Assembly: GCF_028768465.1 (NCBI RefSeq)
Contig: NZ_CP118225.1
Coordinates: 4,073,001-4,137,000, forward strand
Origin: Rhodopirellula sp. P2
GTDB lineage: Bacteria > Planctomycetota > Planctomycetia > Pirellulales > Pirellulaceae
Length of the DNA: 64,000 nt
Direction: 5' to 3'
Under the pieces are notes generated by a model, which saw only the letters and a program-made list of their open reading frames with translations, did no database searches and was not told the origin of the DNA. Position 1 is the stretch's first letter, and each line of letters begins with the position of its first letter. This document shows, piece after piece, positions 34,803 to 53,518 of this stretch. Both the position numbers and the translations under genes were made by a program.

Positions 34803-35234
34803 TCACTCCGCTTCGCGAAGGGATTGATGGCATCGGACACAACTGGTGGTCAATTGGTGATAGGCCAACGTGACGCCGTCGATGTTTTTCTTCTTGGCTT
34901 GATGAATGACTTCGTTGGTGACTCGCTCAAACGTGCGGACATGATTGCGGTAGTCGGGATTGCGACTGCGAGCGAAGCCTTCGACTTTGTTCAGCAACCG
35001 CATGTGGTTCGCATTGGCTTCGATTTGGTCGAAGTCCCCCATCGACAGCCCACGCAGAATTCCGGTGGAGTAGTCCAGCTTTTTCTGCATCCAAAAATCG
35101 AGGGAGCGTTCACCGGTTTCCTTCGGAATCGTGTCGTCGGATGCAGCCTTGGTGCCCGCTTCAGTGCTGGGCGTTTGGGCCATTCCGGTGGTGAGCCAGA
35201 GAGCGGTGAGAGCGAGCATGATGAGAAGACGCAT
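34803..35234 (-). CDS. Exported mono-haem cytochrome c'-like protein
   Basis: ATG at 35234 gives a signal peptide (MRLLIMLALTALWLTTGMAQ) and a 143-residue product. The mature part is helical and carries one C-terminal haem motif, CVRCH at residues 132-136, the position used by cytochrome c'/c556-type four-helix proteins. It is clearly paralogous to the gene at 39717-40163: both share an 'ILxGL...DFDxIxxNAxxxxLL' block and the final CxxCH. A good sigma-54 element lies about 85 bases upstream. Likely a periplasmic electron carrier or gas-binding haem protein. Confidence 0.82.
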   Translation of the reverse strand: MRLLIMLALTALWLTTGMAQTPSTEAGTKAASDDTIPKETGERSLDFWMQKKLDYSTGILRGLSMGDFDQIEANANHMRLLNKVEGFARSRNPDYRNHVRTFERVTNEVIHQAKKKNIDGVTLAYHQLTTSCVRCHQSLREAE

Positions 35235-35318
35235 GAACTTGGTTCCGTTGTGGAAGGGGAAGCGTTGAAAGTGAGAGAGATAGAATCGAGCAGCAAACGT
35301 GACGGGACATCCAACGGG

Positions 35319-35333
35319 GCAAAGCCTATGCCG
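35319..35333 (-). promoter_or_regulatory. Sigma-54 promoter for cytochrome c'-like gene
   Basis: Reading on the minus strand: CGGCATAGGCTTTGC, with GG at -24, ten bases, GC at -12 and the preferred TTGC. Transcription would start near 35308, about 74 bases before the ATG at 35234. Confidence 0.65.
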
Positions 35334-35694
35334 GTGCCAGATTTTGTGCTCGCAGCCCAAATCGGTGCGTTCTCGATCACAACGTGCAAATGAGCACATG
35401 AAAACTGGCACTCGGTAAGCAGGTACGCAGGTGTCATCGGGTATGTGAGCCGCTGGCGTTAGCCACGGTGTTCACGCACAACCGGGGCTAACGCCCAAAC
35501 GGCTCACAGGGTTGTGCTTGATCACTCCTGCCGACCTGCTCAGCATCGTCAGGGCTGGACGTTTCTGTCCCTCACTCGTTTACACCACGGCATTGGTTGG
35601 GGGAAAGAGTGCCTGGGCGTCCTCGTGAGCCACTCGAATCCAGCCATCGTGCGGCGATGCACGTCGCCACGGTCAACTCAGCGAATTTCGCAAA

Positions 35695-35709
35695 CGGATC
35701 AGGAATTGC
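35695..35709 (+). promoter_or_regulatory. Weak sigma-54 candidate upstream of fbaB
   Basis: CGGATCAGGAATTGC has the GG-N10-GC spacing and a good TTGC, but the -24 block is CGGATC instead of TGGCAC. It would start transcription near 35721, some 130 bases before the aldolase. Confidence 0.3.
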
Positions 35710-35853
35710 AAGGAAGAGAACTGTTCCATTCCTTTCCCTGGGATCGAGCGGTCAGTGATCGTCGTCCTTCGCACTTGAAGAGCAGCGTTTGTTCTGCGTG
35801 GATAGCGAAAATGGCGACTGCCCTTTGCCGCGAGGTTCGAATCCGAGAAAACC

Positions 35854-36906
35854 ATGCCCCAATCCACGACAGAACTGCTGGGCCCCGCTGGCCCTCATTT
35901 GCTTGAGCACCATTGTGAAACGATCGACCAAAGTCGGCTGCATCTTCCTGGGCCCGATTTCTTAGAACGCGTGGTGTGCGGAACCGACCGCAACCAACGG
36001 GTCATCAACCAATTGGCGCGTCTCTTTGACCATGGCCGCCTTGGCGGGACGGGGTATGTGTCAATTCTTCCTGTTGACCAAGGCATTGAGCACTCCGCCG
36101 GGGCATCCTTTGCGCCCAACCCGGACTACTTTGATCCAGAGAACATTGTGCGACTGGCGATGGAGGGAGGCTGCAATGCGGTCGCGTCCACTCTGGGTGT
36201 CCTGGGGGCTGTGTCACGCAAATACGCCCATCGAATTCCGTTTGTCGTGAAGATCAATCACAACGAACTGCTCAGCTATCCCAATTCCTACGACCAAGTG
36301 ATGTTTGGCAGTGTCGAACGGGCGTTCGACATGGGGGCCGTCGCGGTCGGAGCGACGATTTACTTTGGTTCCCAAGAATCGCGTCGTCAGCTGGTTGAGG
36401 TAGCGGAGGCGTTCGAACACGCTCACGAATTGGGAATGGCGACCGTCTTGTGGTGCTACCTTCGCAACCCAGCCTTCAAAACGGACCAGGACTACCACAC
36501 GTCCGCGGATCTGACCGGGCAAGCGAATCATTTGGGCGTCACGTTGCAAGCCGATATTATCAAGCAGAAACTGCCAACCAACAACGGTGGTTTCAACGCG
36601 ATCCAATTTGGCAAAACCTCCCCCTTGGTCTACGACGAATTGACCACCGATCACCCGATCGATCTGTGTCGTTACCAAGTGGCCAACTGCTACATGGGCC
36701 GTGCGGGATTGATCAACTCTGGCGGGGCGTCCTCGGGCGCTTCGGATCTCGCTGAGGCAGTGAAAACAGCGGTGATCAACAAGCGAGCCGGGGGAACCGG
36801 TTTGATCTCCGGTCGGAAAGCGTTCCAGCGTCCGATGAAGGAGGGAGTCGAACTGCTGCATCGGATTCAGGACGTCTACCTCGACAAGGCGATTTCGATC
36901 GCTTGA
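35854..36906 (+). CDS. fbaB: Fructose-bisphosphate aldolase, class I (FbaB type)
   Basis: This 350-residue cytoplasmic enzyme cleaves fructose 1,6-bisphosphate or catalyses the reverse reaction by a Schiff-base mechanism. Visible features of the archaeal/FbaB type are [17 protein letters not shown], the [15 protein letters not shown] segment, '[16 protein letters not shown]', '[14 protein letters not shown]' and the long '[53 protein letters not shown]' phosphate-binding end. Length is normal. It stands alone on the plus strand beside the stress cluster. In E. coli fbaB is used mainly in gluconeogenesis; a link to low-oxygen metabolism here is inferred from position. Confidence 0.93.
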
Positions 36907-36966
36907 TTGCCCTGGCACCGCAGAGCGTTGGCCCCGCAGACGATGGGACGCTGGTGGCCCTCGGTA

Positions 36967-38016
36967 TCACGTCGCTGGATGGCCCCAGCGGTCCGCGTGC
37001 AGGTTCGGGGGCGGGAGGTGTGTGTCGCTGCTGTGAAGGTGCGCTGTCAATGCCGCGATGTAGGCGGTTCTGTCTTCATCGCTGGTGAATTCGAGCGGGC
37101 GGCGTGTTTGCAGCTCTCTCATCGATTGCATCTGATGTCGTTCCATGAATTCCGTCAGACCGTCCAGCATGAACCGGATCACATCTGGGCCTTCCCGGTA
37201 GATCGCCGACGTCACCATGGCCACGTCCGCTCCCGCCAGCAGCACCTTGATCAAGTGATCGGCATGACCAATCCCGCCGTTGGCCGCCAATGGCATCGCG
37301 GGGCAATAGCCGTGGACCTGCATCAGCGTGTCCAGCGATTCCATTTCATCGCTCTCATGGGTGAGTCGCCAGCGACTGGCCAGTTTCAGCGTGTCCAGGC
37401 AAATGTCCGTTTTGGGGGCTCGTCCGTGAAGCACCATCCCTTGGGCACCCGACAGCAATTGACGAGCGAGGTGCGGCAAGCTCGTGAAGTTTCGGCCGAG
37501 TTTGACAAACAAGGGAATGGTGATCGATGCGTCGACTTCCCGAATGGCTTCGAGAATGGTCGCTTCAATTTCCGCCGAACTGGTAAAGTCGCTGGGGCGT
37601 GAATGATGAACGTTCAGTTCGATGGCGGCCGCACCGGCCTCCTGCAATTCACCTGCAAAGTCCATCCAGCCACCGGCAGTGAACCCGTTCAGGCTGGCGA
37701 TGATGGGGATGTCTTGCAGAGAACTGGCTCGGTTGACGAGTGCCAAGTAGGAATCCGCGTCGGGGCAAACCCAGTGGTGCTGGGTTCGATCGGAGCGTTC
37801 CAGAAGGCTTCTTTCTCGAGCCGTGATCTTGCGTCCCGCGTTCCAGCTCCAATCGATCACTTGTTCTTCGAACAACGACGGCAACACGATCGCGCCAGCC
37901 CCAGCCTGTTGCATGGCCAAACGCGTGTGTTCATTCATGGACATCGGGGAGGCACCGACGATCACAGGGGAAGCCAACGCGAGCCCACCAAAATGAGTGT
38001 TGAGATGAAAAGTCAT
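36967..38016 (-). CDS. Dihydroorotate dehydrogenase-like flavoprotein (paralog 1)
   Basis: This 349-residue FMN TIM-barrel protein has the dihydroorotate dehydrogenase fold: 'FGGLALASPVIVGASPMSMN', IPIIASLNGFTAGGWMDFAGELQEAGAAAIELNVH, TIPLFVKLGRNFTSLPHLARQL, MPLAANGGIGHADHLIKVLLAGADVAMVTSAIYREGPDVI. It is very similar in layout to the gene at 43998-45041. Proteins of this subgroup are generally separate from the true PyrD and have unproven substrates. It is the last gene of a five-gene minus-strand run starting at 42129 (gaps of 9-82 bases), presumably driven by the sigma-54 promoter at 42163-42177. Confidence 0.87.
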   Translation of the reverse strand: MTFHLNTHFGGLALASPVIVGASPMSMNEHTRLAMQQAGAGAIVLPSLFEEQVIDWSWNAGRKITARERSLLERSDRTQHHWVCPDADSYLALVNRASSLQDIPIIASLNGFTAGGWMDFAGELQEAGAAAIELNVHHSRPSDFTSSAEIEATILEAIREVDASITIPLFVKLGRNFTSLPHLARQLLSGAQGMVLHGRAPKTDICLDTLKLASRWRLTHESDEMESLDTLMQVHGYCPAMPLAANGGIGHADHLIKVLLAGADVAMVTSAIYREGPDVIRFMLDGLTEFMERHQMQSMRELQTRRPLEFTSDEDRTAYIAALTAHLHSSDTHLPPPNLHADRWGHPAT

Positions 38017-38049
38017 TGCTTCAAATCCTTGGCGAGAGAAAAGAACGGT

Positions 38050-39678
38050 TCAAAGCGATTCGGCCACTTGAGCCAAGTCAGGAATCTCAACCACCAACGT
38101 TCGCTCGGCGTCCGTCAGTGGTTCACGATGGGCCAGTTGTCGGTCCAGGACATCGAGGTCAGCATCCGAGGCGTCATGCCGATGTGCCATCCGATCGGCA
38201 ACGCGTTGACGCAGGGTTTGAAGATCGCTGTGGCAATCCAGGATGGCGATGGGGACGCCAGCTTGTTCGGCGAGCTCGTAAAACCGTTGGCGGTCAGCGC
38301 GTCGTAGAAAGGTGGCGTCAACGATCACGCTGTGACCGGACGCGAGAATCCGGCGAGCAAGTTGCGAAAGACGCTGGTAGGTTTGTTCATTGGCCTCGGG
38401 CGAGTACAGCGTCTCCCTGTTCGGGGTGGCAGTGTCCTGGGAAGCAGGATTGGGAGGTCCTGTGTGCGGAGGCCCCGTATCAGGTTGCCCTGGATCGGGT
38501 TGCCCTGTGCTCTCGAAGCCCAGGTTGTCAGCATTCAAACGCTGCCTCGCCGACTGCCCAAACATTCGCTTTCGTTCAACATCGCTGCGCAATCGGAACG
38601 CGTTGTGGCGTTGCACGACCGCCTCACTGAGCGTTGTCTTTCCACTGCCACTGACGCCGTGCGTGATCCACAATCGGGGTGTCTCACGCAACGTGAACCG
38701 ATAGGCCAAGTCGACATGATGGCGAGCGTCCTCCGCATCCTTCCGCATCGATGCGGCCAAGGCCCGCACAAGGGCTCGGTAAACCAAGAACAACCTCAGC
38801 AATTCCAACGATTGGTAGTCGCCAGTGCATTCCAAGTAGGCGTTGAGGAAGGTGCGTGAAAGATCGAGATGATCCCGCGCTGCCAAATCCATCGCCAGAA
38901 ACGCGGCGTCACTGAGAACATCAATCCATCTCAGGTGGTCGTTGAACTCAATGCCGTCGAAGGGAACCAACTGGCCTTGCCAACACACCACGTTGGCTGA
39001 GTGCAGATCACCGTGACATTCACGGATGAAGCCGGCCGCAATCCGATCGGCCAGCAAGCGTTGATGCTGTGCCTGGAACTCGGTTGTCCAGTCACGCAAC
39101 ACTTCGCAGGTCGCCGCGGTCGAGGCATCCGCGGTTGTCAGAACCTGTTCGATCGTCTGAGGGATGTTCGCCTGCAAGAATTCAGGCCACTGTTCAGCGA
39201 TGCGATCGCGGCAAACCGCCGCGTCATGGTGGAATCCCGCGATGGTGGATGCCAGTTGGACGACTTCCTTGGTGGTCAGTTGTCCTGCTTGAACCCGTTC
39301 ACTGAGCAGGGCACTGGAAGAAAAACGGTGCATCTTGACCGCATACTCGATCACATCGCCTTTCCCTTCGATGGTCGGTCGATCCCCGGAGAGAGTGATC
39401 GGCACGACTCCGATGTACAGACCTTTGGCAAAGCGACGATCTAAACGCAGCTCTTCTTCGCAGAAATGTCGCCGCAGGGCGAGCGTGCTGTAGTCAAGGA
39501 AGTCCGTCTGAATGGGCTTCTTGATCTTGTACGCAAACTCACCAGCCAAGAGCACAACCGAGAGGTGCGTCTCGTGAACGAGAACCGGGGATTCGATCGA
39601 ATGCGGGTACGCCTGGGGGTGTTTCAAACCAGCGATCAAGCCATCCAGGGTTGGCTGGATGTCTGTTGTGGTGTTCAT
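38050..39678 (-). CDS. Fused aminoglycoside-phosphotransferase-like/P-loop kinase protein
   Basis: ATG 39678 (MNTTTDIQPT) follows GGGGAT; a TTG at 39696 is also in frame. The 542-residue protein has an N-terminal APH-like kinase domain with HGDLHSAN at 222-229 and the Mg-binding Asp in PFDGIEF (D241). A P-loop kinase domain follows, with Walker A GVSGSGKT at 341-348. Between the P-loop and the rest is an odd Pro/Gly/Thr-rich segment (about residues 390-430) with repeats of PDTGPPHTGPPNP type. The architecture is that of Rv2004c, a DosR-regulon protein of M. tuberculosis. Substrate unknown; despite the name, antibiotic resistance is not implied. Confidence 0.85.
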   Translation of the reverse strand: MNTTTDIQPTLDGLIAGLKHPQAYPHSIESPVLVHETHLSVVLLAGEFAYKIKKPIQTDFLDYSTLALRRHFCEEELRLDRRFAKGLYIGVVPITLSGDRPTIEGKGDVIEYAVKMHRFSSSALLSERVQAGQLTTKEVVQLASTIAGFHHDAAVCRDRIAEQWPEFLQANIPQTIEQVLTTADASTAATCEVLRDWTTEFQAQHQRLLADRIAAGFIRECHGDLHSANVVCWQGQLVPFDGIEFNDHLRWIDVLSDAAFLAMDLAARDHLDLSRTFLNAYLECTGDYQSLELLRLFLVYRALVRALAASMRKDAEDARHHVDLAYRFTLRETPRLWITHGVSGSGKTTLSEAVVQRHNAFRLRSDVERKRMFGQSARQRLNADNLGFESTGQPDPGQPDTGPPHTGPPNPASQDTATPNRETLYSPEANEQTYQRLSQLARRILASGHSVIVDATFLRRADRQRFYELAEQAGVPIAILDCHSDLQTLRQRVADRMAHRHDASDADLDVLDRQLAHREPLTDAERTLVVEIPDLAQVAESL

Positions 39679-39716
39679 CACATTTAGATCCCCCAAAAAA
39701 GCGTTTGGCCAATCAA

Positions 39717-40163
39717 CTATTCACGAGGTAACTCAATCAATTCGTCTCGATGCTTTCGCATGTAGGAGTGACATTCCACACAATGAACCGTCATGGCGAC
39801 GTACCCCATCGTGGCCCGATGGATGTCCTTTTCCTCTGCGGCTTCGGCAATCAAATCGGTTGCACGTTGAAAGTCGCGACTTTGCTCGGCGTACTCTCGT
39901 GTTTGAATCACATTCCACCCGGACTCCGTGCTCAGCAATTTCAGCGATCGAGCGTTGGACGCGATCTTGTCAAAGTCTTCGAGCGTCAACCCTTCCAAGA
40001 TTGCTTTGGACCTTTCCAGCTTCAACCGCATCAGCGGGGTGAGTTTGGTTGTCCGGCTCAATGGGACGTTGTCGGATGGCGGGTCCGCTTGCAAAGTCAA
40101 CGCCACCACGGACGTCAACAACAACACAAAACCGGCAAGCATGATTGAGAAAGTGCTTTTCAT
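39717..40163 (-). CDS. Exported mono-haem cytochrome c'-like protein (paralog)
   Basis: The 148-residue protein has a signal peptide (MKSTFSIMLAGFVLLLTSVVALTLQA), a helical body and one haem motif CVECH at residues 128-132 near the C-terminus. 'AILEGLTLEDFDKIASNARSLKLL' aligns with the equivalent block of the protein at 34803-35234. It lies between an upstream universal stress protein gene (nine bases) and the fused kinase gene, in the five-gene run. Probably a periplasmic haem protein. Confidence 0.83.
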   Translation of the reverse strand: MKSTFSIMLAGFVLLLTSVVALTLQADPPSDNVPLSRTTKLTPLMRLKLERSKAILEGLTLEDFDKIASNARSLKLLSTESGWNVIQTREYAEQSRDFQRATDLIAEAAEEKDIHRATMGYVAMTVHCVECHSYMRKHRDELIELPRE

Positions 40164-40172
40164 GACGTTCAG

Positions 40173-41147
40173 CTAAATCAGAGGAAGTGGTTCATCATCT
40201 TCGATCAACGAGGTCTGCGACATTTCGACGGGCGAGAGAAATCCTTTGGGTTTGAGCGCCAGCAACGAACAGGTGATGTCGGGAATGACTGTTTCTGCGG
40301 TGTTGCCAATCAGGATTCCTGCGATGCCGGAACGACAAACGGTTCCCATCACCATCAAATCCGCTTCGACTTCGTCCGCCACGCTGCGAATCACTTCGGC
40401 GGGGGCTCCCTGTCGCAGGTGCAAGTGCACGTCAGCGGCGTCTGCGTAAGGGGCTTGCAGAAGTTCGTCGAGCGCTTGGTGGACCTTCCTTTCGTGATCC
40501 TTGCGTGCCAGGTCCACCGCGTCATCGCCCGCGTGCCGACGGATTGAATCTTCCATCCACATTTGCCAAGCGGCGACGACATGCAATTGAGCTTTGTCAC
40601 GCTGGGCGATGGAATACGCTCGCTCCAGAATCTGACGGTTCAAGTCACGGTGTTGTTGGTTCGCGGCTTCCACGTCGATCGCCGCGACCACTTGGTCGAA
40701 TTCCCCGTGAATGTCCGGCTTGAGCAACCACACGGGGCAAGGGCACAATCTCAGAAGCGATTTCGCGATGCTTCCGAAGAAGCGTTCGGCCGCAGTGAAT
40801 CCGTCGGCCGTCTTGACGACGAGATCATGTTCTTCCTGGAGCACCCGGCGAGTGATCTCGGTGGCTGGGTCGCCGATGGCAACCGCGACGTCCAGGGTCA
40901 AGCCGGTGTCAGAGTAGTCCGCTGCGAGATCCAGCAAACGACGACGGCGATCTGCCGCCACCAGCTTTTCCAATTCCTCTGGTTTCGCCACATCGGTCAT
41001 CATGCCCAGCGCCTTGGGGATCGGCTTGACGACATCCATGAGCGTCAGTTTTGCATTGTTTTCGAGCGCCAGATCTGTCGCCCGCGAAACTGCAGTCTGT
41101 GGTTGTTCGGTACCAGCGTACACGAGAATGTTGGTGAAGTTTTGCAT
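40173..41147 (-). CDS. Universal stress protein, two UspA domains (1)
   Basis: ATG 41147 (MQNFTNILVYAGTEQ) is the likely start; the frame opens at 41177. The 324-residue protein is a tandem UspA. The first domain runs to about residue 145 and has a degenerate nucleotide loop (VVKTADGFTAAERFFGSIAKSLL). The second has a better GxxG-x9-GN-like loop, VMGTVCRSGIAGILIGNTAETVI. Usp proteins bind ATP or AMP and support survival in starvation or hypoxia. It is the second gene of the sigma-54-driven run. Confidence 0.9.
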   Translation of the reverse strand: MQNFTNILVYAGTEQPQTAVSRATDLALENNAKLTLMDVVKPIPKALGMMTDVAKPEELEKLVAADRRRRLLDLAADYSDTGLTLDVAVAIGDPATEITRRVLQEEHDLVVKTADGFTAAERFFGSIAKSLLRLCPCPVWLLKPDIHGEFDQVVAAIDVEAANQQHRDLNRQILERAYSIAQRDKAQLHVVAAWQMWMEDSIRRHAGDDAVDLARKDHERKVHQALDELLQAPYADAADVHLHLRQGAPAEVIRSVADEVEADLMVMGTVCRSGIAGILIGNTAETVIPDITCSLLALKPKGFLSPVEMSQTSLIEDDEPLPLI

Positions 41148-41229
41148 GGGATTGGTAGCCGAGGTTTGGCAAGGCAAGGGATTGGGAGTTCACAGATCGA
41201 GAGGGCCGTGGCAATTCATTGAGACACAA

Positions 41230-42129
41230 TCAGGTTGCCGTGGAATGTTGAAGGACTGCATCTATGGGAGCACCCGGCAGCGATCGATTGCGTGCGATCC
41301 AGACACTTGAGGGAGCATGTCGAAGCACAAATCGCGTGGTGCTGCCCAACAGAACTCGTCCCAGGTCGCTTCGGGGCGTTTCCCCCACCACCACCAGATC
41401 GACTTGATTGGTTTCGATGTAGTCGACCAAGCCATCACCAATGTGGTCGCAGTGAATCAGATGTCCTTGAGTGGTGGAGGCGACGTCATTCAGACGTTCC
41501 ACCACACTCTCAATGACTTCGGTTGCGGGAGCATCGTTGGGTTGTTCGTTGTCATCCATGTTGTCTGTCACCGACAACACACGCACTTCGCTGTTGCTGG
41601 CCCAGCCAAACTCGGCGAATTCTTCCACGGCATTCTCGGAAGGCTGGCTCGATTCGCAGCCAATCGCGACCCGCAGGCGATGACGTCCGCTGAACTGTGA
41701 ATTGGGCCGCACCACCAGAACACTGCAGGGGACGTGGGTTGCCACGTAATCACTGACGCTGCCCTGCAGGAGGCGAGCAACGGTTGAGTAGCCCTGCGAT
41801 CCAATCACCACCAAATCGGGTTGAGTTTCCTTGACAACCGCGACAATGGTTTCGCCCGGCTGGCCTTGGCGGATGACCTGACGCCAATCGATGTCGGCAT
41901 CCTGAAAGTACTCCTGGACTTTGCTGAACGACTGCTTGGCCTGATCGTGCTTTCTCGCGATCCAACTTTCGCTCCATCCATCCGCCAGAAATGTTCTTCG
42001 CGAAGGGGTCTCCGTGATCGCCGTGACGACGGTCAATTCCATCGATTCCGCGTGTGGCAAGCGAGCCAGGAAACGAGCGGCGTCGAGCGAAGCGTCGGAA
42101 CCGTCAATGGTCAGCAAAATCTTTTTCAT
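41230..42129 (-). CDS. Universal stress protein, two UspA domains (2)
   Basis: This 299-residue tandem UspA protein starts MKKILLTIDGSDASLDAARFLARLPHAE. The first domain has the full ATP-binding signature G-x2-G-x9-GS in VVIGSQGYSTVARLLQGSVSDYVA; the second carries VVGETPRSDLGRVLLGSTTRFV. It is cytoplasmic and the first gene of the run 42129 to 36967. A strong sigma-54 element lies about 34 bases before the ATG, with predicted transcription start near 42152. Confidence 0.92.
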   Translation of the reverse strand: MKKILLTIDGSDASLDAARFLARLPHAESMELTVVTAITETPSRRTFLADGWSESWIARKHDQAKQSFSKVQEYFQDADIDWRQVIRQGQPGETIVAVVKETQPDLVVIGSQGYSTVARLLQGSVSDYVATHVPCSVLVVRPNSQFSGRHRLRVAIGCESSQPSENAVEEFAEFGWASNSEVRVLSVTDNMDDNEQPNDAPATEVIESVVERLNDVASTTQGHLIHCDHIGDGLVDYIETNQVDLVVVGETPRSDLGRVLLGSTTRFVLRHAPSSVWIARNRSLPGAPIDAVLQHSTAT

Positions 42130-42162
42130 CGAACTCTCTTAGGGGTTGCTGGGAGAGCTGAC

Positions 42163-42177
42163 GCACGCGGGGTGCCA
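42163..42177 (-). promoter_or_regulatory. Sigma-54 promoter for the five-gene stress run
   Basis: Minus strand reads TGGCACCCCGCGTGC: a perfect TGGCAC -24 block, correct N10 spacing and GC at -12. It lies upstream of the first universal stress protein gene and should drive the genes down to 36967. Confidence 0.75.
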
Positions 42178-42297
42178 AAGAGAACTTTCCGCAAAATCGC
42201 TCTGCTTTCCCAAGGCAACGCGTGCGTGGGTGCACATCTGAGCGGGGTGGATCGGCTGGAGAGCGATGTGGGCCGCCTTTTTTCGCGGTATTGCACA

Positions 42298-42312
42298 TGG
42301 TCCCGGCTTTGC
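42298..42312 (+). promoter_or_regulatory. Sigma-54 promoter for the gene at 42361
   Basis: Plus strand reads TGGTCCCGGCTTTGC followed by T, with TGG, correct spacing and a perfect TTGCT. Transcription start is predicted near 42324, about 37 bases before the ATG. It is divergent from the promoter at 42163-42177. Confidence 0.65.
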
Positions 42313-42360
42313 TAACTCAACTGATACCGTCCAGTTCCACACCACAGGATTTCGATTGAC

Positions 42361-42948
42361 ATGTCGAACTTGAAAGCCGACCCCACCAAGCAACGGGCCA
42401 TCGAATTGAAGCACTACTTTTCGAACCTGGAACAAGCGATTGTTCGCAAACTGCACGACGAAGCCGGTAGTGATTTCGGTCGTCAAGAATTGATTCGTAG
42501 CACCGGGATCCATGATCCCCAGCTCATCGAAGAATTAGGAAAGTTGGGTGTGACGGCCGACGGCTTGATGGCACTTCGATTGTTCCCGCTGGTGCTGGTC
42601 GCGTGGGCAGAAAAAAACGTCGATCAAAAGGAACGCGAAGCAGTCATCGAGGAAGCACAACGAATTGGAATCCAGGAAGATTCCACTGCCGGAATTCTGC
42701 TCGATGAGTGGCTGCAGGTGCGTCCGCCCGGATTGTGCGTGGACGCGTGGAAGCGATACATGCACGAACGATTCCGAGGCATGTCGAGTGTCGCTCAGCA
42801 GCGGTTGATTCTGTTGACGGAAAAACAAATGACCAGCGTCGCGAAGGCTTCGGGCGGGCACTTGGGGTTTGGAAAGGTCTCGGCCAAAGAAAAGGCCATC
42901 ATTCATCAAGTGATCACGGCGATGCGGCAACAGACGCAAACGAATTGA
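42361..42948 (+). CDS. TerB-like helical protein, hypothetical
   Basis: This 195-residue protein is all helical and has no signal peptide. 'ALRLFPLVLVAWAEKNVDQKEREAVIEEAQRIGIQEDSTAGILLDEWL' (about residues 75-120) resembles the TerB-type repeat, in which a Leu/Val-rich helix with 'AWAD..V...E...I' is followed by an acidic helix. The identification is tentative. It has its own sigma-54 element and is divergent from the universal stress protein run, so it is likely co-regulated. Confidence 0.68.
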   Translation: MSNLKADPTKQRAIELKHYFSNLEQAIVRKLHDEAGSDFGRQELIRSTGIHDPQLIEELGKLGVTADGLMALRLFPLVLVAWAEKNVDQKEREAVIEEAQRIGIQEDSTAGILLDEWLQVRPPGLCVDAWKRYMHERFRGMSSVAQQRLILLTEKQMTSVAKASGGHLGFGKVSAKEKAIIHQVITAMRQQTQTN

Positions 42949-45041: not shown

Positions 45042-45216
45042 GGCTTGGGCACCCCGCAGGAAAGAGAAGATTCAAGGACAAGGAAGCTCAACGCAAACGT
45101 TGTTCCATCTCGAATCTTCTCCTCTCTGCTCCCTCGGGCGCGCTAGTGTGACGCTACGGAGCAGACCACCGAGCAAGTTTGGAGCAGAGTGGTGTGCGGA
45201 AAGGCTGTTTTGGGAA

Positions 45217-45231
45217 CGGCACAGTCATTGC
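45217..45231 (+). promoter_or_regulatory. Sigma-54 promoter for the small coiled-coil gene
   Basis: Plus strand reads CGGCACAGTCATTGC: GGCAC, ten-base spacing, TTGC. Transcription would start near 45243, about 60 bases before the ATG at 45305. Confidence 0.7.
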
Positions 45232-45233
45232 CT
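45219..45233 (-). promoter_or_regulatory. Overlapping minus-strand sigma-54 candidate
   Basis: The reverse complement of nearly the same bases reads AGGCAATGACTGTGC, again GG-N10-GC. It points toward the DHOD-like gene at 45041, giving a leader of about 165 bases. The match is weaker than its partner. Confidence 0.35.
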
Positions 45234-45304
45234 TGGAACCCAACCACAGCGGCCGGCAATCGACTTCGCCACGCCGCGTCTCACATTTTCAAAGGATGAA
45301 TTCC

Positions 45305-45571
45305 ATGCCTGCCTCTGCCCGCCGATTGATCTCCAACATGATTGGTGACCTCAAAGAAGAACGAGACGAGCTGGCTCTGCAGATTCACCTTGGCAAGGAA
45401 GAAGCCAAGAGCGAGCTGGCACGACTCGACAAGAAACTCGAAGAATTGAACCAGCAATACCAGCCACTCAAGAACGCGGTGGATGAAACCAGTGACGATG
45501 TTTGGGCTGCGTTTCAGCTCGTTGGAGAAGAAATCAAAAACGGATTTTACCGGATCCGAAAGTCCTTTTGA
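45305..45571 (+). CDS. Small coiled-coil protein, hypothetical
   Basis: ATG 45305 (MPASARRLISNMIGDLKEERDELALQ) follows AAGGA at a good distance. The 88-residue protein is a charged coiled coil over residues about 12-60 (LKEERDELALQIHLGKEEAKSELARLDKKLEELNQQ), followed by a short helix ending FYRIRKSF. No named family. Its sigma-54 element places it with the stress genes. Confidence 0.72.
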   Translation: MPASARRLISNMIGDLKEERDELALQIHLGKEEAKSELARLDKKLEELNQQYQPLKNAVDETSDDVWAAFQLVGEEIKNGFYRIRKSF

Positions 45572-45760: not shown

Positions 45761-45790
45761 GCCGGTTCGCCGTATGACTTCTTCCTAAGC

Positions 45791-47260
45791 TCAAAAGACA
45801 GGTTCGCCAGCGAATTCGTCGCCGTCGGTGTCGGTGTTGCTTGATGGGGCACCATTGAATCGGTCCAGCAAACGATAGAGCTTTCGACGGTGGATTCCCA
45901 GTTTGCGAGCCGCCCCGGCTTTGTTTCCGTTTTGGTCTTCCAAGACTTTCAAGACATGGACTCTTGCGATCTCGTCCAGTTGGTAGCGGGAGTCGCCCAG
46001 CATCTCACTGGGGTGCGGTGAAGCCGTTGATTCCTGACCTGCGTCCACGTTCGGCGTTGCTGCCGTTGGGGACCTCACCAGTGGTTTGGCGGACGGATGA
46101 CCGAAGTCAACCACTTCGGACGGGAGGTCGTCCAAGGTGATGTCGAATTCGTCGGCCAAGATCGTCGCTCGATCGATCACATTGATCAGCTGTCGAATGT
46201 TGCCCGGCCAAGGGTAGCGGTTCATGGCATCCCGCGCCGCATCGTCCATGTGGTAGGACCGTGGCAGGAAATGGTCGATCAATCGATCAATGTCACCTTC
46301 TCGGTCACGCAGCGGAGGGAGCGTTATCGACAGGACGTTGATCCGGTAGAACAAATCTTCCCGGAAGTTGCCGCGATTGACTTCGGTTTGCAGGTCCCGA
46401 TTGGTCGCGGCAATGATGCGGACCTTGACGTTGCGTTGGCGGTGGCAACCCACGCGACGCAGTGACCCGTCTTCGAGCACTCGCAGCAACTTGGGCTGCA
46501 AAGAAAGTGGCAGTTCCCCAATTTCATCGATGAACAGGGTTCCACCGTCCGCGATTTCAAACAGCCCTGGCTTCTCGGCCGTTGCCCCCGTGAAGGCTCC
46601 CTTTTGATGGCCGAACAGTTCGCTCTCCACCAGATTCTCTGGCAGCGCGGCACAGTTGACGGTGACAAACGGCTTGTCAGCGACGTGACTGGATTGCTGG
46701 ATTGCCTTGGCGACGACTTCTTTGCCCGTGCCGCTTTCGCCTTGAATCAAAACGGGCTTTGTCGTGCGTGCGACCTTTTCAATCAGTCTCGAAACCTCTT
46801 GCAACGATTTCGATTGCCCAATCAGTTTGGCGGCCGGTTGCGAACGCGAGATGACGGCTTTGAGCTGCTTGTTTTCCTTCTTCAGTTGGTGGCGTTCACG
46901 GGCTCGAAAGCAATGGTGTTCCAAATCACCCAGTGCACATGGTTTGCTCAGAAAGTCGCAGGCTCCCATCTTCATCGCCGACACCGCCGTTTCCACGGTG
47001 CCCTGCCCGGTCAGCATGATGACCTCGATGTCGATGTTTTCCTGATGAATTCGTTGCAGCAGTTCCAACCCGGACATGCCAGGCATGTTCATGTCGAAAA
47101 CACCCACATCAAATGATTCGCGTTCGAGCAGCCCGAGGGCTTCGGCAGCGTTGGATACATCGGTCACGGTGTGTCCCTTTCGCGTCATCCATTTTGCCGA
47201 CGATCGACGAGAGTCCTCTTCGTCGTCGACCAGCAGCAGCTTGATGGGCGATTCCGTCAT
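45791..47260 (-). CDS. NtrC-family sigma-54-dependent response regulator
   Basis: This 489-residue activator has the standard three parts. The receiver domain carries acidic D12/D13 and phospho-acceptor D56 in [10 protein letters not shown], with Lys106 in SKP. The AAA+ domain has Walker A GESGTGKE at 174-181, GAFTGA at 221-226 (the loop that contacts sigma-54), Walker [11 protein letters not shown] and the [12 protein letters not shown] region. The Fis-type helix-turn-helix is at the C-terminus ([23 protein letters not shown]). All motifs are intact, so it should activate sigma-54 promoters. It is the only such activator in the window and sits among genes carrying -24/-12 elements. Confidence 0.96.
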
Positions 47261-47720: not shown

Positions 47721-47978
47721 ATGCCAGAAGCACTGGAAGACACACTGCGGCAACTTCATGACCAATTGGCCGAACTTGACACGTTGAGTTCTTCGGAACG
47801 ACAGCAGCTCACGAACGCGGTCGAGGAGATTCAAGACAGCTTGGAGCGGTTCGACATTCAATCAGCCGAATTGGCCAAGCGGTTTCATCGATCGACCCAA
47901 GACGTCACTTGCAAACACCCGCAGTTGACTCAAACAGCCGGTCAATTTGCCGACATGCTTTCGCAAATGGGAATCTGA
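47721..47978 (+). CDS. DUF4404-type small helical protein
   Basis: ATG 47721 gives MPEALEDTLRQLHDQLAELDTLSSSERQQLTNAVEEIQDSLERFD, an 85-residue helical protein with the HDQL..L..LS..ER..L......I pattern of DUF4404. The remainder, 'FHRSTQDVTCKHPQLTQTAGQFADMLSQMGI', is also typical. The family is small, cytoplasmic and of unknown function, and is often found with stress genes. Confidence 0.78.
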   Translation: MPEALEDTLRQLHDQLAELDTLSSSERQQLTNAVEEIQDSLERFDIQSAELAKRFHRSTQDVTCKHPQLTQTAGQFADMLSQMGI

Positions 47979-48417: not shown

Positions 48418-49905
48418 ATGGACGACGAGTTGACGATCTTGCTCGTTGAAGACGATCCGGATTCTTTAGCGAACATGATCGACATCCTGGAGATGGATGG
48501 GCATGAAATTCGAGTCGCCGGCAGCTTCGCCGAGGTCCTGAATGCTGGCGTCGATCCCGCGATTGAACTGGCGATCTTGGACCGTCGATTGCCCGATGGG
48601 CAAGTCGAAGACCATCTGGCTGGTTTGACGGAGCGATTGCCCAACGCTGAGTTCATCATCGTGACCGGGTTTGCGAACATGGAAGGCACGATCGCGTCTT
48701 TCAAGCAAGGTGTGACGGACTACCTCCTCAAACCCGTGCATCCGGATGTTATCCGGCAAAGCGTTGCCAGGATCGCGAAACACAAACGGGTCGAAGCGGA
48801 ATTGCAGCGTGAGCAGCGATTCGCGAATCAAATCTTGGAGACAACCGAGGCGTTGATCGTTGTCCTCGATCTGGACGGACGTGTCGTCCACGTCAACAAG
48901 CATTTCTCAGTCGTGACCGGTTGGGAACTCGAGCAGTTGGTCAATCAGGACTATCTCCTGCACTGCATTCCGGCGGCGGATCGGAAACGGGCCAGCGAAG
49001 TTTTTCGTGAGTCGGTCTGCGGCAGGCAGGTGTCCGGTTTCCGCAGCGGTGTTTTGACCAAAGGCGGTCGCGTGCGGCAGATTCGTTGGTCGGACACGGC
49101 GTTGAAGGACGCCAACGGTGAGATCGAATCCGTGCTGGCGATTGGGATCGATGTGACGGAAATGGTCGAAGCTCAGGAGGCATCCGCGAGAGATCACCGG
49201 CTCGCCGCGATTGGGCAGACCGTGGCCGGGTTGGCACACGAAAGCCGAAACGCGCTGCACAGGATCAACGCCAGCGTCGAACTTTTGCGTCTCGATGTGC
49301 CTCTTCAGACGGACATGCGTGAGGAGATCGAGACCATCGCCCGAGCATCCAATGAACTGGGGACGACGCTGGAAGAGGTTCGTGAGTTTGCGGCCCCGAT
49401 TCGTCTGCACCTTGAAACGGCCTTGCTGCCCGAAATTTGGCGACGGGTGTGGAGCTACCTGGCGAAATCGCGGGTCAGTCGCGACGTCGAATTGAGCGAG
49501 ACGCTGTGCGATTGCGGATGCCCCGTCGTCGTGGATGTGCTGCGGATGGAACAAGTTTTTCGCAATCTATTTGAGAACTCGCTGGCGGCTTGTCAGGATC
49601 CCGTTCGCATTCGCCTGCAATGCCGGTGCGATGGCGGCGGCAATGTGTTCCTGGATTTCGAGGACAATGGCCCCGGACTCTCGCCCGAGCAACAACAAAT
49701 GGTTTTTGAACCGTTCTTCACCACCAAAGTCAAAGGAACCGGACTGGGCATGTCGATCGTTCAGCGCATCGTCCATGCCCATGGTGGGATGATCCGAATC
49801 GCCCAGCCGACGCAGTGCGGGGCACGGTTCCTCATCCGTCTCGGAAAGCACGAATTGACACTGGAAGATGACTGCACCGGATCACGGGAATCAAGCAATG
49901 CATGA
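48418..49905 (+). CDS. Histidine kinase with N-terminal receiver and PAS domain
   Basis: This 495-residue cytoplasmic kinase has a receiver domain (E11/D12, phospho-acceptor D55 in LAILDRRLPDG, K105 in LLKP). A PAS domain follows at about 135-250 ('ETTEALIVVLDLDGRVVHVNKHFSVVTGWELEQL'). The dimerisation helix has H274 in GLAHESRNALHRIN, and the ATPase domain has FRNLFENSLAAC, DFEDNGPGL and TGLGMSIVQRI. The H-box reads HESRNAL, without the usual Pro after Asn. It is the first gene of a three-gene operon with the FixL-like kinase and a two-receiver protein, and overlaps the next gene. Confidence 0.92.
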   Translation: MDDELTILLVEDDPDSLANMIDILEMDGHEIRVAGSFAEVLNAGVDPAIELAILDRRLPDGQVEDHLAGLTERLPNAEFIIVTGFANMEGTIASFKQGVTDYLLKPVHPDVIRQSVARIAKHKRVEAELQREQRFANQILETTEALIVVLDLDGRVVHVNKHFSVVTGWELEQLVNQDYLLHCIPAADRKRASEVFRESVCGRQVSGFRSGVLTKGGRVRQIRWSDTALKDANGEIESVLAIGIDVTEMVEAQEASARDHRLAAIGQTVAGLAHESRNALHRINASVELLRLDVPLQTDMREEIETIARASNELGTTLEEVREFAAPIRLHLETALLPEIWRRVWSYLAKSRVSRDVELSETLCDCGCPVVVDVLRMEQVFRNLFENSLAACQDPVRIRLQCRCDGGGNVFLDFEDNGPGLSPEQQQMVFEPFFTTKVKGTGLGMSIVQRIVHAHGGMIRIAQPTQCGARFLIRLGKHELTLEDDCTGSRESSNA

Positions 49906-51037
49906 TGTCGAACAACTGGCCGTCCTGGCCTCGGTGTTACGAACAGCGGTCGATGCGATCATCATCATTGACCAGCGGGGCAGGATCGAGTCCGTCAATC
50001 TTGCGACGGAGCGGATGTTCGGATTTCGTTCGGGGGAAATGCTCGGTCAGAATGTGAAGATGTTGATGCCATCGCCCTATCATGAACAGCACGATGGCTA
50101 CCTCGGTCGTTATCAGGAAACTGGCGAACGACACATCATCGGCATCGGCCGTGAAGTGACCGGTCAGCGAAAAGACGGCAGTCTGTTCCCGTTGCATCTG
50201 GCGGTGAGCGAAGTGGAAGCCAAAGAGCGAAAACTCTTCTGTGGGATTTTGCGTGACATCAGCGATTTGAAAGCGGTGGAAGCGGAACTGAAGCAACTCA
50301 ACGCGACACTCGATCAACGCGTCCAAGACCAAGCCGCCGAGCTACAGAAGGCTCAATCCGAGTTGGTCGAAAAGGAGAAGTTTGCCACGCTCGGCCGGAT
50401 TTCAGGGGGGATCGCTCACGAGATTCGCAACCCACTCAACGCGATCAAAACGTCCGCTTACTATTTGCTCAACGCGAAAACGCCGTCACCAGCGAAGACC
50501 GAGGAGCATCTGAATCGAATCGATCGGCAAGTCTCGAGCATCAACAACGCGGTCACGGCGTTGTCGGACCTGGCTCGTTTGCCCGATCCACAATCGAGAC
50601 CGCTGGATGTCGCCGAAATGCTGGTGGCAATCCTGCGGGATTGCAAATTGCCGCGAAACATCATTGTCACGCAAGACGTTCCGGCGGACTTGCCGAACGT
50701 GTGGGCGGATGAAAAACAGTTGCCCATCGTGTTCAAGAATCTGATTCGCAACGCTCGGGACGCGATGAACGAGGGCGGCGCACTCAAGTTGTCGGCCCGC
50801 CTCTTGGAATCACAAGTGGTCGTCACTGTGCAAGACGATGGCCTGGGAATGTCGCCGGAGGTGGTGCATCGAATCGCAGAACCGTTCTTTTCGACCAAGG
50901 CTCGCGGGATGGGCCTGGGCATGGCCATCACCACCGCCATCCTCGAAAAGAACCGTTGCACGATGGAATTGGAATCGGAACCCAACCAGGGAACCACGTT
51001 TCAAATCTCCATCCCGATCGCGGAGCAGAACCAGTGA
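49898..51037 (+). CDS. FixL-like haem-PAS histidine kinase
   Basis: The start at 49898 (MHDVEQLAVLASV) overlaps the previous gene by eight bases; ATG 49868 is an alternative. The 379-residue soluble kinase has one PAS domain (about residues 8-125), a linker helix, H174 in the canonical HEIRNPL box and an intact ATPase domain (FKNLIRNARDAMNEGG, VQDDGLGM, GMGLGMAIT). The PAS carries the FixL haem signature: H65-D-x-Y68-x-x-R71 and, 14 residues after the His, H79-I80-I-G-I-G-R85. These correspond to B. japonicum FixL H200, Y203, R206, H214, I215 and R220. It should sense oxygen through haem b. The next gene overlaps with GTGA. Confidence 0.9.
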   Translation: MHDVEQLAVLASVLRTAVDAIIIIDQRGRIESVNLATERMFGFRSGEMLGQNVKMLMPSPYHEQHDGYLGRYQETGERHIIGIGREVTGQRKDGSLFPLHLAVSEVEAKERKLFCGILRDISDLKAVEAELKQLNATLDQRVQDQAAELQKAQSELVEKEKFATLGRISGGIAHEIRNPLNAIKTSAYYLLNAKTPSPAKTEEHLNRIDRQVSSINNAVTALSDLARLPDPQSRPLDVAEMLVAILRDCKLPRNIIVTQDVPADLPNVWADEKQLPIVFKNLIRNARDAMNEGGALKLSARLLESQVVVTVQDDGLGMSPEVVHRIAEPFFSTKARGMGLGMAITTAILEKNRCTMELESEPNQGTTFQISIPIAEQNQ

Positions 51038-51762
51038 CAGCGAAACGAGTGTTGATCGTGGACGATGACGAGGACATCTGCGCGAACATCAAGGACATTC
51101 TCGACGATCTGGGGTACCAGACCGACGTCGCGCACGATGGACCCTCGGCGTTGCAGTTGGTTGAGTCCAATCCCTACGACGTGGCCTTGCTGGATTACTC
51201 GATGCCTGGCATGGACGGAGCCACACTGCATCACCAGATGGTTCAGCTTCGCCCGGAAATTGCCGCGATCATGGTGACCGCTTACGCTCACGGCGATGGT
51301 GCTCAGCGAGCCCGTGACAGCGGGATTCAACAGGTGCTTCGCAAGCCCGTTGATCTGAAGGAATTGCTTCCGTTGGTCGAGCAAATCTCGAATTCACCGA
51401 TTGTGCTGGTCGTTGACGATGACCCCGAGTTTTGTCAAACGATGTGGCACATTTTGCGTGAGCGATCGTACCGAGTTTGTTTAGCGCACAACAAAGAAGA
51501 TGGCGTCCAGAAAGCGATGGGAGCTGACTACCAGATCGCGGTGGTCGACCTCAGCCTGTGCAACGGACAGACCGATGGTTGTGAGGTCCTGCAGCGAGTC
51601 CTGGAGGTCAATCCGAACATTCAAACGATCCTGATCACGGGGCACCGCGATGCAGCCGACGGTATCCTCGACGGCTTGAAGGCTCGCGGGTTGGACGAGG
51701 TCTGTTTCAAGCCCTTGGACATGGATGTCTTGATGAGCAAGATCGACAACCGCAGCTCATAA
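51034..51762 (+). CDS. Response regulator with two receiver domains, no output domain
   Basis: GTG 51034 overlaps the stop of the FixL-like kinase gene (GTGA), showing translational coupling. The 242-residue protein has two receiver domains. The first has D10/D11/D12, D54 in VALLDYSMPGM and K104 in RKP; the second has VVDDD at 127-131, D172 in AVVDLSLCNG, and KPLD near the end. No DNA-binding domain follows. It probably relays phosphate between the kinases and another regulator, with the sigma-54 activator at 45791 an attractive target. That is inference. Confidence 0.92.
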   Translation: MTAKRVLIVDDDEDICANIKDILDDLGYQTDVAHDGPSALQLVESNPYDVALLDYSMPGMDGATLHHQMVQLRPEIAAIMVTAYAHGDGAQRARDSGIQQVLRKPVDLKELLPLVEQISNSPIVLVVDDDPEFCQTMWHILRERSYRVCLAHNKEDGVQKAMGADYQIAVVDLSLCNGQTDGCEVLQRVLEVNPNIQTILITGHRDAADGILDGLKARGLDEVCFKPLDMDVLMSKIDNRSS

Positions 51763-51797
51763 AAGCTCATTCTTCGGTTTTCAACGCCTCGCCTGAT

Positions 51798-52154
51798 TCA
51801 CTCGAAATCGTGTGGCGGGGATTCCAGGGGGATGCGTTTTGCGATGGGCAAGCGATTCCTAGCGAGCGGTTTCTTTCCGGTCACATCGATCTGGTTGCGG
51901 ATGCGCAAGCTTCGTGACAACGGCCGAACGGCCTCCTGAGCGAGTTGTTTGAGATAGAACGACGAGACACGTCCCTGCAACACAACCCCTTGGTCGCTGA
52001 CGTCGACCCGAATGTCCCGCAACTCGCCGTGACCGACGCGCCGCATTTCAGCGTTGAACTTTTCGGCCTCATCCCGGATGGCGATGGATGTTGGACGAAC
52101 CGCTGGTGAATCTGAAGAGAACGACGTTTCGTCAATCGATGGAATCGCCTGCAT
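51798..52154 (-). CDS. BON-domain protein
   Basis: ATG 52154 is chosen because GGAAAG precedes it; the frame runs on upstream to 52355. The 118-residue protein has a BON domain at about residues 40-95 (LRDIRVDVSDQGVVLQGRVSSFYLKQLAQEAVRPL...IRNQIDV). BON domains bind membranes or osmotic-shock partners. No signal peptide is visible with this start. A good sigma-54 element lies about 65 bases upstream, divergent from the next kinase. Confidence 0.78.
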   Translation of the reverse strand: MQAIPSIDETSFSSDSPAVRPTSIAIRDEAEKFNAEMRRVGHGELRDIRVDVSDQGVVLQGRVSSFYLKQLAQEAVRPLSRSLRIRNQIDVTGKKPLARNRLPIAKRIPLESPPHDFE

Positions 52155-52219
52155 TGGAACTTTCCGTGTGTGCACAGTTGAGGGGTTCGGGAGCTGAAAA
52201 GGCTCCGTGAGGTCGATGA

Positions 52220-52234
52220 GCGAACCTCGTGCCG
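52220..52234 (-). promoter_or_regulatory. Sigma-54 promoter for the BON gene
   Basis: Minus strand reads CGGCACGAGGTTCGC: GGCAC, ten-base spacing, GC. Transcription would start near 52209, about 55 bases before the ATG. Confidence 0.7.
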
Positions 52235-52272
52235 AGAATTCGTGAACAATGCAGCCGAGGTCAGTCACCCGA

Positions 52273-52287
52273 TGGCACTCCGTCTGC
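52273..52287 (+). promoter_or_regulatory. Sigma-54 promoter for the third kinase gene
   Basis: Plus strand reads TGGCACTCCGTCTGC followed by A: a perfect TGGCAC and GC at the right distance. Transcription start is predicted near 52299, 35 bases before the ATG at 52334. Confidence 0.75.
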
Positions 52288-52333
52288 ATTGCACTTCCTC
52301 CGGCCGAGTACCAACTTTTGGGCGGAAACAGAA

Positions 52334-53518
52334 ATGCACATGAAAATCGATCCATTGCGGCACAATCACTTAGCTAGGGTGATGATGGAGGCGTCCACTG
52401 CCGCCATCATCTTGTCAAATACGCGTGGAATCATCGAAGCAATCAACCACGTGGCCGAGTCGTGGTTTGGGTACAAAGAAAAAGAATTGGTCAGTCAAAA
52501 AATTGATTTGATTCTGGAGATGGAAATCACCAGTGACGATGCGTCACACACTTCGTGCCGCTTGGCACAATCGAGCGATTCGGAACGTCGTCAGCCAATC
52601 CTCGGTCGAGGCCGCCGCCGCGATGGTTCCAGTTTTCTTGCCCAAACCACCCAGTACCCACTGACCTCCGATTGGGGTGAAACTCGCTGGCTCAACTTGG
52701 TCGATGTCTATCGCGATCCCACCGGTGAGGAGGGTGCCGAGGGAGGTCCCTCCGGGGTGGATCACTTGATCGAGGGCGAGCGACTGGCGGCCGTGTTGCA
52801 GATGGCCACTGGACTGGCGCACGAATCCAGCAATGCGTTGCAACGCGCCCAATCGTGCTTGGATCTGTTGCGTCTGGATCTCACGCATCAAGGCGAACTG
52901 CTGGAGTTGACCGATCAGATCAAAACCGCCCTGAATGACTTGCACCGGAACCATGAAGAAGTCAAGCGTTACGCGGCACCCATTGTCCTCAAACGGTCGC
53001 GGGTGAATCCTGTCTTGCTTTGCCAAGCCAAATTTGACGAGCTGGTGCCGTCCATTTCGGATGAACGGTCCCCCGTGAGGCTTGCGGTCGATGTCCGGCA
53101 CGGCCGATGTCTGGAGTCGAGCGAGGACTGCGAATGGGACTCGGATTGTTCGGTCCAGTTGGACGCCAATCGTATCGGCGAGGTCCTGCGTCGCGTCCTT
53201 GAGAACGCGATCCATGCCAGTCCACCCGGCGGACAAATCGACTTCCGATGCGATTGCTCACCTCCAGCCGAAACGCTCTCGGCGGATTGGAAGTCGAGCG
53301 AGACGTCTCCGATTCTGTTGCGTGTCCGCGATCATGGCAGTGGCCTCACCGAAGAAGTTCAGCATCGGATGTTCGAACCCTTCTTCACAACCAAGCAACG
53401 AGGCGCGGGGCTGGGACTTTCTGTCTGCCGACGAATCGTCAAAGCTCATGGAGGAACGATGGAGGCTGCCAACCATCCCGATGGCGGGACCGTCGTTCAA
53501 ATCATCTTGCCAAGGTGA
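52334..53518 (+). CDS. PAS histidine kinase
   Basis: ATG 52334 (MHMKIDPLRHNHLARVMMEAS) follows GGCGGAAACAGAA. The 394-residue soluble kinase has a PAS domain (about 15-130; 'ASTAAIILSNTRGIIEAINHVAESWFGYKEKELV'). Its dimerisation helix has the His in GLAHESSNALQRA, and the ATPase domain has LRRVLENAIHASPPGG, VRDHGSGL and GAGLGLSVCRRI. The PAS lacks the FixL haem residues. As in the kinase at 48418, the H-box lacks the Pro (HESSNAL). Its own sigma-54 promoter suggests it is a target of the regulon as well as a possible input. Confidence 0.9.
   Translation: MHMKIDPLRHNHLARVMMEASTAAIILSNTRGIIEAINHVAESWFGYKEKELVSQKIDLILEMEITSDDASHTSCRLAQSSDSERRQPILGRGRRRDGSSFLAQTTQYPLTSDWGETRWLNLVDVYRDPTGEEGAEGGPSGVDHLIEGERLAAVLQMATGLAHESSNALQRAQSCLDLLRLDLTHQGELLELTDQIKTALNDLHRNHEEVKRYAAPIVLKRSRVNPVLLCQAKFDELVPSISDERSPVRLAVDVRHGRCLESSEDCEWDSDCSVQLDANRIGEVLRRVLENAIHASPPGGQIDFRCDCSPPAETLSADWKSSETSPILLRVRDHGSGLTEEVQHRMFEPFFTTKQRGAGLGLSVCRRIVKAHGGTMEAANHPDGGTVVQIILPR

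Follow-up and report, generated by a model that had tools for sequence, protein, structure and literature searches.

A probable sigma-54 regulon with its own phosphorelay and a FixL-type haem kinase in Rhodopirellula sp. P2

Planctomycetes are mostly regarded as aerobes, and to our knowledge little is known of their response to oxygen loss; sigma-54 has reportedly been the subject of an earlier study in Pirellula sp. strain 1. Here we analyse a locus of Rhodopirellula sp. P2 in which genes for universal stress proteins (usp), putative haem proteins and a fused kinase lie beside an NtrC-type activator and three histidine kinases, and which a sequence-only reading had taken for an oxygen-controlled sigma-54 dormancy regulon analogous to DosR of mycobacteria. 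The window, that is the whole stretch of 64,000 nucleotides analysed, covers positions 4073001-4137000 of a 7.29-Mb genome in a single contig; coordinates are window positions followed by the strand, unless another sequence is named. 'Rhodopirellula' is used for the genus as delimited in our genome set, which also takes in R. baltica (G003), R. europaea 6C (G006), R. rubra (G002), Aporhodopirellula aestuarii (G008) and R. sallentina (G012). Literature searches found no earlier description of this locus or of this combination of parts.

The presumed output regulator is an NmpR-like sigma-54 activator of the NtrC type (45791-47260, -), in which Pfam finds REC, Sigma54_activat (AAA+) and HTH_8 domains and a GAFTGA motif was read by eye. 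Three kinases accompany it, as the sequence-only reading had stated. HK1 (48418-49905, +; NmpS-like) combines an N-terminal receiver (REC 7-116) with PAS, HisKA and HATPase domains, and HK2 (49868-51037, +), to which we assign an NmpU-like role, carries a FixL-type haem PAS that matches the FixL structure 1dp6 at E 1.6e-32. HK3 (52334-53518, +) is a PAS histidine kinase in which Pfam finds PAS and HATPase but not HisKA. The NmpT-like protein RR2 (approximately 51031-51762, +), which the earlier gene list had left out, consists of two Response_reg stretches and matches no other Pfam family.

The haem-pocket residues of FixL are named as His200 and Arg220 in the part of PMC10765370 available to us. 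H75 and R95 of HK2 align with this proximal histidine and distal arginine, are likewise 20 residues apart, and are invariant in the nine HK2 proteins aligned, a set to which those of G001 and G006 do not belong. At activator loci of other genera, seven of eight FixL-like kinases keep both the haem histidine and the arginine. HK2 differs from rhizobial FixL in its likely output, an NtrC-type activator and not FixJ, and nitrogen fixation genes were not seen in the locus. The genome holds one rpoN, and usp genes lie within 10 kb of both activators of this subfamily, compared to none of the 15 other sigma-54 activators. As a separate observation, genome positions 4182046-4182968 match a sigma-54 activator in two overlapping reading frames, and this gene may be broken.

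Pfam and NCBIfam searches of the locus proteins bear out the rest of the gene list. USP1 (40173-41147, -) and USP2 (41230-42129, -) are tandem universal stress proteins with two Usp stretches each. The dihydroorotate dehydrogenase-like flavoproteins DHOD1 (36967-38016, -) and DHOD2 (43998-45041, -) both exceed the NF005741 cut-off, and the class I fructose-bisphosphate aldolase (FBA; 35854-36906, +) exceeds that of NF006707. Pfam also identifies a BON-domain protein (51798-52154, -) and a DUF4404 protein (47721-47978, +). Two helical proteins are recognized by their conservation: TerB195 (42361-42948, +; the name is provisional), for which neither a Pfam nor a fold match was found, and s91 (45296-45571, +), a small coiled protein supported by synteny and without a Pfam match. 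A further addition to the earlier list is HHH (43002-43985, -), a PolX-like helix-hairpin-helix protein that probably shares an operon with DHOD2.

Two assignments need qualification. In the fused kinase APHk (38050-39681, -), said to join an APH and a P-loop part in the manner of Rv2004c, the P-loop half matches AAA_33 (E 2.7e-39). For the N-terminal half Pfam gave no APH match at E 0.001, and the APH label therefore rests on the architecture and on an HGD-type motif read by eye. Homologues of the protein occur in several phyla. The exported CxxCH proteins cyt1 (34803-35234, -) and cyt2 (39717-40163, -) are homologous at 26% and have no Pfam match, and a PDB sequence search with cyt2 gave no match of note. 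Its structural model (pLDDT 80) is a four-helix bundle with a C-terminal CxxCH, for which Foldseek ranks cytochrome c' first (E 3.5e-3, probability 1.00, TM about 0.5), with no match at E 0.001 or better. The TM-score is moderate and a sequence match is absent; the model suggests a c'-type haem protein in line with the earlier proposal, which would extend to cyt1 by homology.

To characterize the promoters, we scanned 11 transcription-unit regions with an untrained sigma-54 weight matrix that follows the published consensus; units and starts were set by the analyst. A -24/-12 element of at least 9.5 bits lies within 130 bp of the start in 7 of the 11 regions, compared to 6 of 130 control genes drawn from 16 stretches elsewhere in the genome (Fisher P 2.6e-6). 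On the reverse strand, 7 of the 130 control genes reach this score. At 11 bits, five locus regions and a single control gene remain. The element of cyt1 (CGGCATAGGCTTTGCC; 35318-35333, -) is conserved in G009 and G001. Those of USP2 (TGGCACCCCGCGTGCG; 42162-42177, -) and TerB195 (TGGTCCCGGCTTTGCT; 42298-42313, +) barely exceed 9.5 bits and are kept in six of seven and five of five distant relatives, respectively. The elements of DHOD2 (TGGAACAACGTTTGCG; 45092-45107, -) and s91 (CGGCACAGTCATTGCC; 45217-45232, +) are kept in 4/4 and 3/3. That of BON (CGGCACGAGGTTCGCT; 52219-52234, -) has similar counterparts in G009 and G001, in the latter at a greater distance upstream, and that of HK3 (TGGCACTCCGTCTGCA; 52273-52288, +), the top score of the window at 15.2, is identical in G009. 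An eighth element, that of FBA (CGGATCAGGAATTGCA; 35695-35710, +), stands 143 bp upstream of the start and hence beyond the search zone; an element of at least 9 bits precedes FBA in seven genomes, which are all those with a full-length FBA found, at shifted positions.

Conservation singles out the expected spacing. In GG-Nk-GC alignments with distant relatives, 6 of 24 sites with spacing 10 are conserved in all distant rows, compared to 0 to 2 of 19-26 sites for each of the other twelve spacings (4-9 and 11-16). Three of these six sites (cyt1, BON and HK3) have one distant row only, and in that row the BON and HK3 sites are much further from the gene. The proposal that GG-N10-GC elements precede most units of the locus is upheld by these results. 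Two of the three conditions named at the outset as refuting it, a lack of enrichment over background and a lack of conservation in relatives, do not apply; the third concerns transcripts.

Upstream of the promoters we enumerated inverted repeats with 5-base half-sites, using the sequences before the -24 elements of cyt1, FBA, USP2 and DHOD2. The dyad GTGCA-N4-TGCAC ranked first, with a score of 2.86 compared to a best score of 1.51 in one shuffle. Its core, GTGC-N6-GCAC, stands 32-62 bp before four elements: it is found at cyt1 (35384-35397, -), at FBA (35649-35662, +) and at 42222-42235, where a single dyad is common to USP2 (-) and TerB195 (+). In the intergenic region of DHOD2 and s91 (45108-45216), a conserved block resembling GTGTCACA-N3-GYGYGC, read by eye, occupies the dyad's place; it is perhaps the site of another activator or another arrangement of half-sites. 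The dyad alone was dropped as a genome-wide signal, with 121 occurrences in the genome and 181 in the reversed control.

A composite pattern, made of the dyad, 29-59 bp and YGGN9TGC, has six matches in the entire genome, three of them at the locus. Among 13 genomes, 22 of 104 composite matches lie within 10 kb of a subfamily activator or fused kinase, where 0.57 would be expected; the signal lies in position and not in the overall frequency of the pattern. Such nearby matches are found in 10 of the 13 genomes, and G005 and G007 are without the activator and kinase genes concerned. Of these 22 nearby matches, 13 had contributed to the discovery of the motif and nine were held out, one of which shares its dyad with a used site. 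Three held-out matches are in G008 (before usp, before cyt1, and at C148, which looks like chance), and G012 and G011 each have one before usp; the usp and cyt1 sites of G008 and G012 stand beside a moved activator. G001 contributes three more, two before extra usp genes and one upstream of what is probably the start of a cation P-type ATPase gene, where the dyad is shared with cyt1, and the last, in G004, precedes a piece of a cation P-type ATPase gene. Over the loci read, the gaps between dyad and promoter are 31-33, 42-44, 49-50, 54, 61-64 and 73 bp for sites scoring at least 5, leaving aside locus L212, whose gap of 9 is uncounted. These gaps agree with helical phasing: the 16 best sites give a Rayleigh value of about 5e-4 at 10.5 bp, though with orthologous sites pooled and the period scanned.

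The order of the genes is conserved as well, as the synteny comparison suggested by the earlier reading confirms. With single losses, the run FBA-DHOD1-kinase-cyt2-USP1-USP2-TerB195-HHH-DHOD2-s91, continued by DUF4404 and then HK1-HK2-RR2, is kept in G009, G001, R. baltica, G004 and R. europaea 6C. R. rubra, A. aestuarii and R. sallentina keep FBA, DHOD1, the kinase, cyt2, USP1, USP2 and HHH; no TerB195, DHOD2, s91 or signalling gene was found at the locus in these three genomes (the R. sallentina contig ends after HHH), which have an activator of 75-77% identity elsewhere. In R. rubra, FBA and DHOD1 are separated by a glycogen debranching gene of the isoamylase type (L066:1927-4194). In G005 and G007 no activator was found at E 1e-100, and for the fused kinase G005 gave a 28% match only and G007 none. 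In all 16 Rhodopirellula loci read (activator identity at least 60%), HK1 is no more than about 3 kb away from the activator, while HK2 with RR2, or HK3, vary among them, and in some relatives the composite pattern accompanies the activator and usp genes to new places. A first threshold scan suggested that loss of the local activator goes together with loss of the promoters; this was rejected, as aligned sites are present in R. baltica, G004 and G006.

Across the family, the activator is found at E 1e-165 in 23 of 119 genomes, which belong to 11 of the 60 genera. We read 20 of the 21 activator loci listed for other genera: usp genes are present in 10, RR2 in 2, and composite sites with gaps of 33-73 bp in 6. 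These sites stand before usp and TerB195 (L209), before usp (L214) or before the activator gene itself (L218, L222 and L226), and that of L213 precedes no assigned target.

Around the fused kinase outside Rhodopirellula, usp genes were found in the fetched flank of 11 of 75 loci, and DHOD and cyt genes in one each, some contigs being short. Since usp is present at only these 11 loci, the pairing of usp with the fused kinase is not general, and we rejected a general link between them across phyla. In a Rubripirellula metagenome-assembled genome (L134:1500-11521), usp genes and two cytochrome-like genes occur with the fused kinase, near which open reading frames resembling NiFe hydrogenase and zinc alcohol dehydrogenase were read by eye. 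In a proteobacterial one (L186:4565-18280), which is among the 75 loci, tandem usp, the fused kinase, an NtrC-type activator, a globin-coupled histidine kinase and a cation P-type ATPase are close together. Beside the locus itself, at 53650-61459 of the window, a ShlB/FhaC-type secretion protein adjoins a 1887-residue open reading frame, likely as a two-partner secretion pair.

The closest counterpart of the signalling genes by parts is NmpRSTU of Myxococcus xanthus, a proposed oxygen relay according to the available text of PMC11841059. Both systems combine a haem kinase, a two-receiver protein (here RR2), a kinase with an N-terminal receiver (HK1) and an activator with REC, Sigma54_activat and HTH_8 domains, and both have sigma-54, an upstream dyad, and a usp gene and P-type ATPase among the targets, the ATPase being found here in relatives. 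Homologues of nmpSTU in Planctomycetes are mentioned in the accessible part of a 2018 paper (PMC6211767). The systems differ in the sensor, which is a protoglobin in Myxococcus; no globin was found in the three locus kinases, and HK2 has the FixL-type PAS. They differ further in the additional PAS of HK1, in the association of the Myxococcus P-type ATPase with a cbb3 oxidase, and in the fused kinase, DHOD-like proteins, aldolase and cytochrome c' that the locus adds to the targets. The Myxococcus dyad is GCGCA-N5-TGCGC compared to GTGC-N6-GCAC here; it was among the dyads enumerated and fell outside the 25 best listed.

We propose that HK2 would read oxygen through its haem and phosphorylate both the HK1 receiver and RR2, the latter probably serving as a phosphate sink. 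The phosphorylation of the activator would be under the control of HK1, and the activator in turn would bind the dyad and drive sigma-54 polymerase. On a fall in oxygen, the usp-cyt-kinase-DHOD operon, FBA, cyt1 and the other units would be transcribed, letting the cells live on low energy, and HK3 may supply a second signal. Oxygen control is likely, judging from one domain; induction by oxygen loss and the polarity of the response are predictions, and 'dormancy' is so far no more than a name. FixL is active without oxygen. The haem kinase NmpU, on the other hand, is active when oxygen is present and then switches NmpS off (PMC11841059). Given this difference, either the sign of the relay would be opposite to that of NmpRSTU, or HK2 would work in another way.

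Taken together, we consider it probable that the locus is a sigma-54 regulon with its own phosphorelay. The claim that sigma-54 promoters join the locus genes holds by the control-gene enrichment, the conserved spacing and, at part of the units, the upstream dyad; the activator subfamily, the GTGC-N6-GCAC dyad and the predicted -24/-12 promoters co-occur at several target units, both in P2 and in certain relatives. The promoters and their tie to the activator are well supported at the locus and in part of the relatives.

Several results, besides the opposite oxygen response of FixL and NmpU, weigh against this reading. No element reached threshold before the activator, DUF4404 or HK1, and the dyad was searched for at DHOD2/s91 and BON/HK3 and not found. 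The genome-wide promoter search shows no excess of the strict consensus, with 77 matches compared to 77 in the reversed control. Nor is the composite pattern commoner than its reversed control, with 6 matches compared to 13 in the P2 genome and 104 compared to 109 in the 13 genomes, and G010 has activator and fused kinase yet no nearby composite match. R. baltica, G004 and G006 keep the promoters without a local activator, having only a relative of 63-64% identity elsewhere. In most activator loci read, the pattern does not accompany the activator: among 12 further Rhodopirellula loci (L109-L120), a composite site with a full-score promoter is present in three (L109, L110, L112), weak or ill-placed in L113, L117 and L119, and absent from L111, L114-L116, L118 and L120. 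The loci without one include R. baltica's own activator locus, where three usp genes lie beside the activator. HK1 was found in only 7 of the 20 loci of other genera, and several activator loci have no FixL-type kinase. The P2 genome itself has a second cluster at genome positions 357942-366955 (L009, L010), in which three tandem usp genes accompany an HK1-like kinase and a 63% activator paralogue; between the kinase and the activator there is an exact dyad, with a weak promoter match only. At loci without the composite, expression of the usp genes may depend on other sites or on the operon of the activator itself.

The regulon could also be real and sigma-54 dependent while its main signal is another stress, such as metal, redox or energy, received through HK1 and HK3 with HK2 as an accessory. 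We regard this as unlikely but as the strongest of the alternatives. It would account for HK1 being the constant partner of the activator within Rhodopirellula while HK2 or HK3 come and go, and for the second cluster, near which only a 28% match to HK2 is found. The accessible part of PMC12316311 is also in keeping with it, as planctomycete activators of this COG are read there as ZraR; COG0589 (UspA) is enriched under the sigma-54 promoters that it predicts in Planctomycetia, to which, in that part, no activator, site or sensor is assigned. The arrangement of the sensor genes speaks for oxygen instead: HK2 and RR2 form one run with HK1 in all six Rhodopirellula genomes with HK1 at the locus, the four of these genomes whose HK2 was aligned all keep the haem residues, and four quartets elsewhere (L113, L118, L119 and L120) hold all four parts.

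A dormancy regulon in the strict sense of DosR, needed for survival without growth, is the version of the sequence-only reading, and it appears improbable to us. DosR is a NarL-type regulator served by GAF haem kinases with haem-based sensing, and its regulon includes a P-type ATPase. What stands of the analogy is the target list. The usp genes and the Rv2004c-type kinase are shared, the type being given by architecture and the kinase being assigned to the USP2 operon by gene order only; a cation P-type ATPase occurs in two relatives, and a nitroreductase gene lies near the A. aestuarii activator (L109), where the sole nearby composite match is weak and inside an open reading frame. In the parts of PMC5309233 and PMC10034137 available, usp and nitroreductase genes belong to the DosR regulon, and a predicted M. 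abscessus DosR regulon of six genes holds two usp, an Rv2004c orthologue and a nitroreductase. The signalling architecture does not follow the analogy: the activator is of the NtrC type, the kinases carry PAS domains in an NmpRSTU-like arrangement, and sigma factor and site differ as well, so that relatedness of the circuits is not indicated. The scarcity of usp genes at fused-kinase loci outside Rhodopirellula argues in the same direction.

That unrelated genes merely adjoin and the promoter matches are noise would agree with the lack of genome-wide excess of the strict consensus and the composite, but is very hard to reconcile with the spacing-specific conservation, the control-gene test and the held-out sites.

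Myxobacteria have circuits related to the proposed sigma-54 regulon, and mycobacteria have related ones built from other parts; the combination at this locus would be a variant of this known kind of circuit. It offers a defined activator, a predicted binding site and a target list that are open to direct testing. It points, too, to a possible exchange of the sensor in a relay of the NmpRSTU type, and suggests that the same genes for low-energy survival have come under haem kinases on more than one occasion. We put forward, tentatively and as a possibility that we hold below even, that the Pirellulaceae share a widespread low-oxygen survival switch that combines a single activator subfamily and a single dyad with interchangeable kinases of the haem or PAS type, in which an NmpRSTU-type relay with a FixL sensor would have gathered DosR-like targets independently of mycobacteria. 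If so, the proteobacterial locus with the globin kinase would represent a third such assembly.

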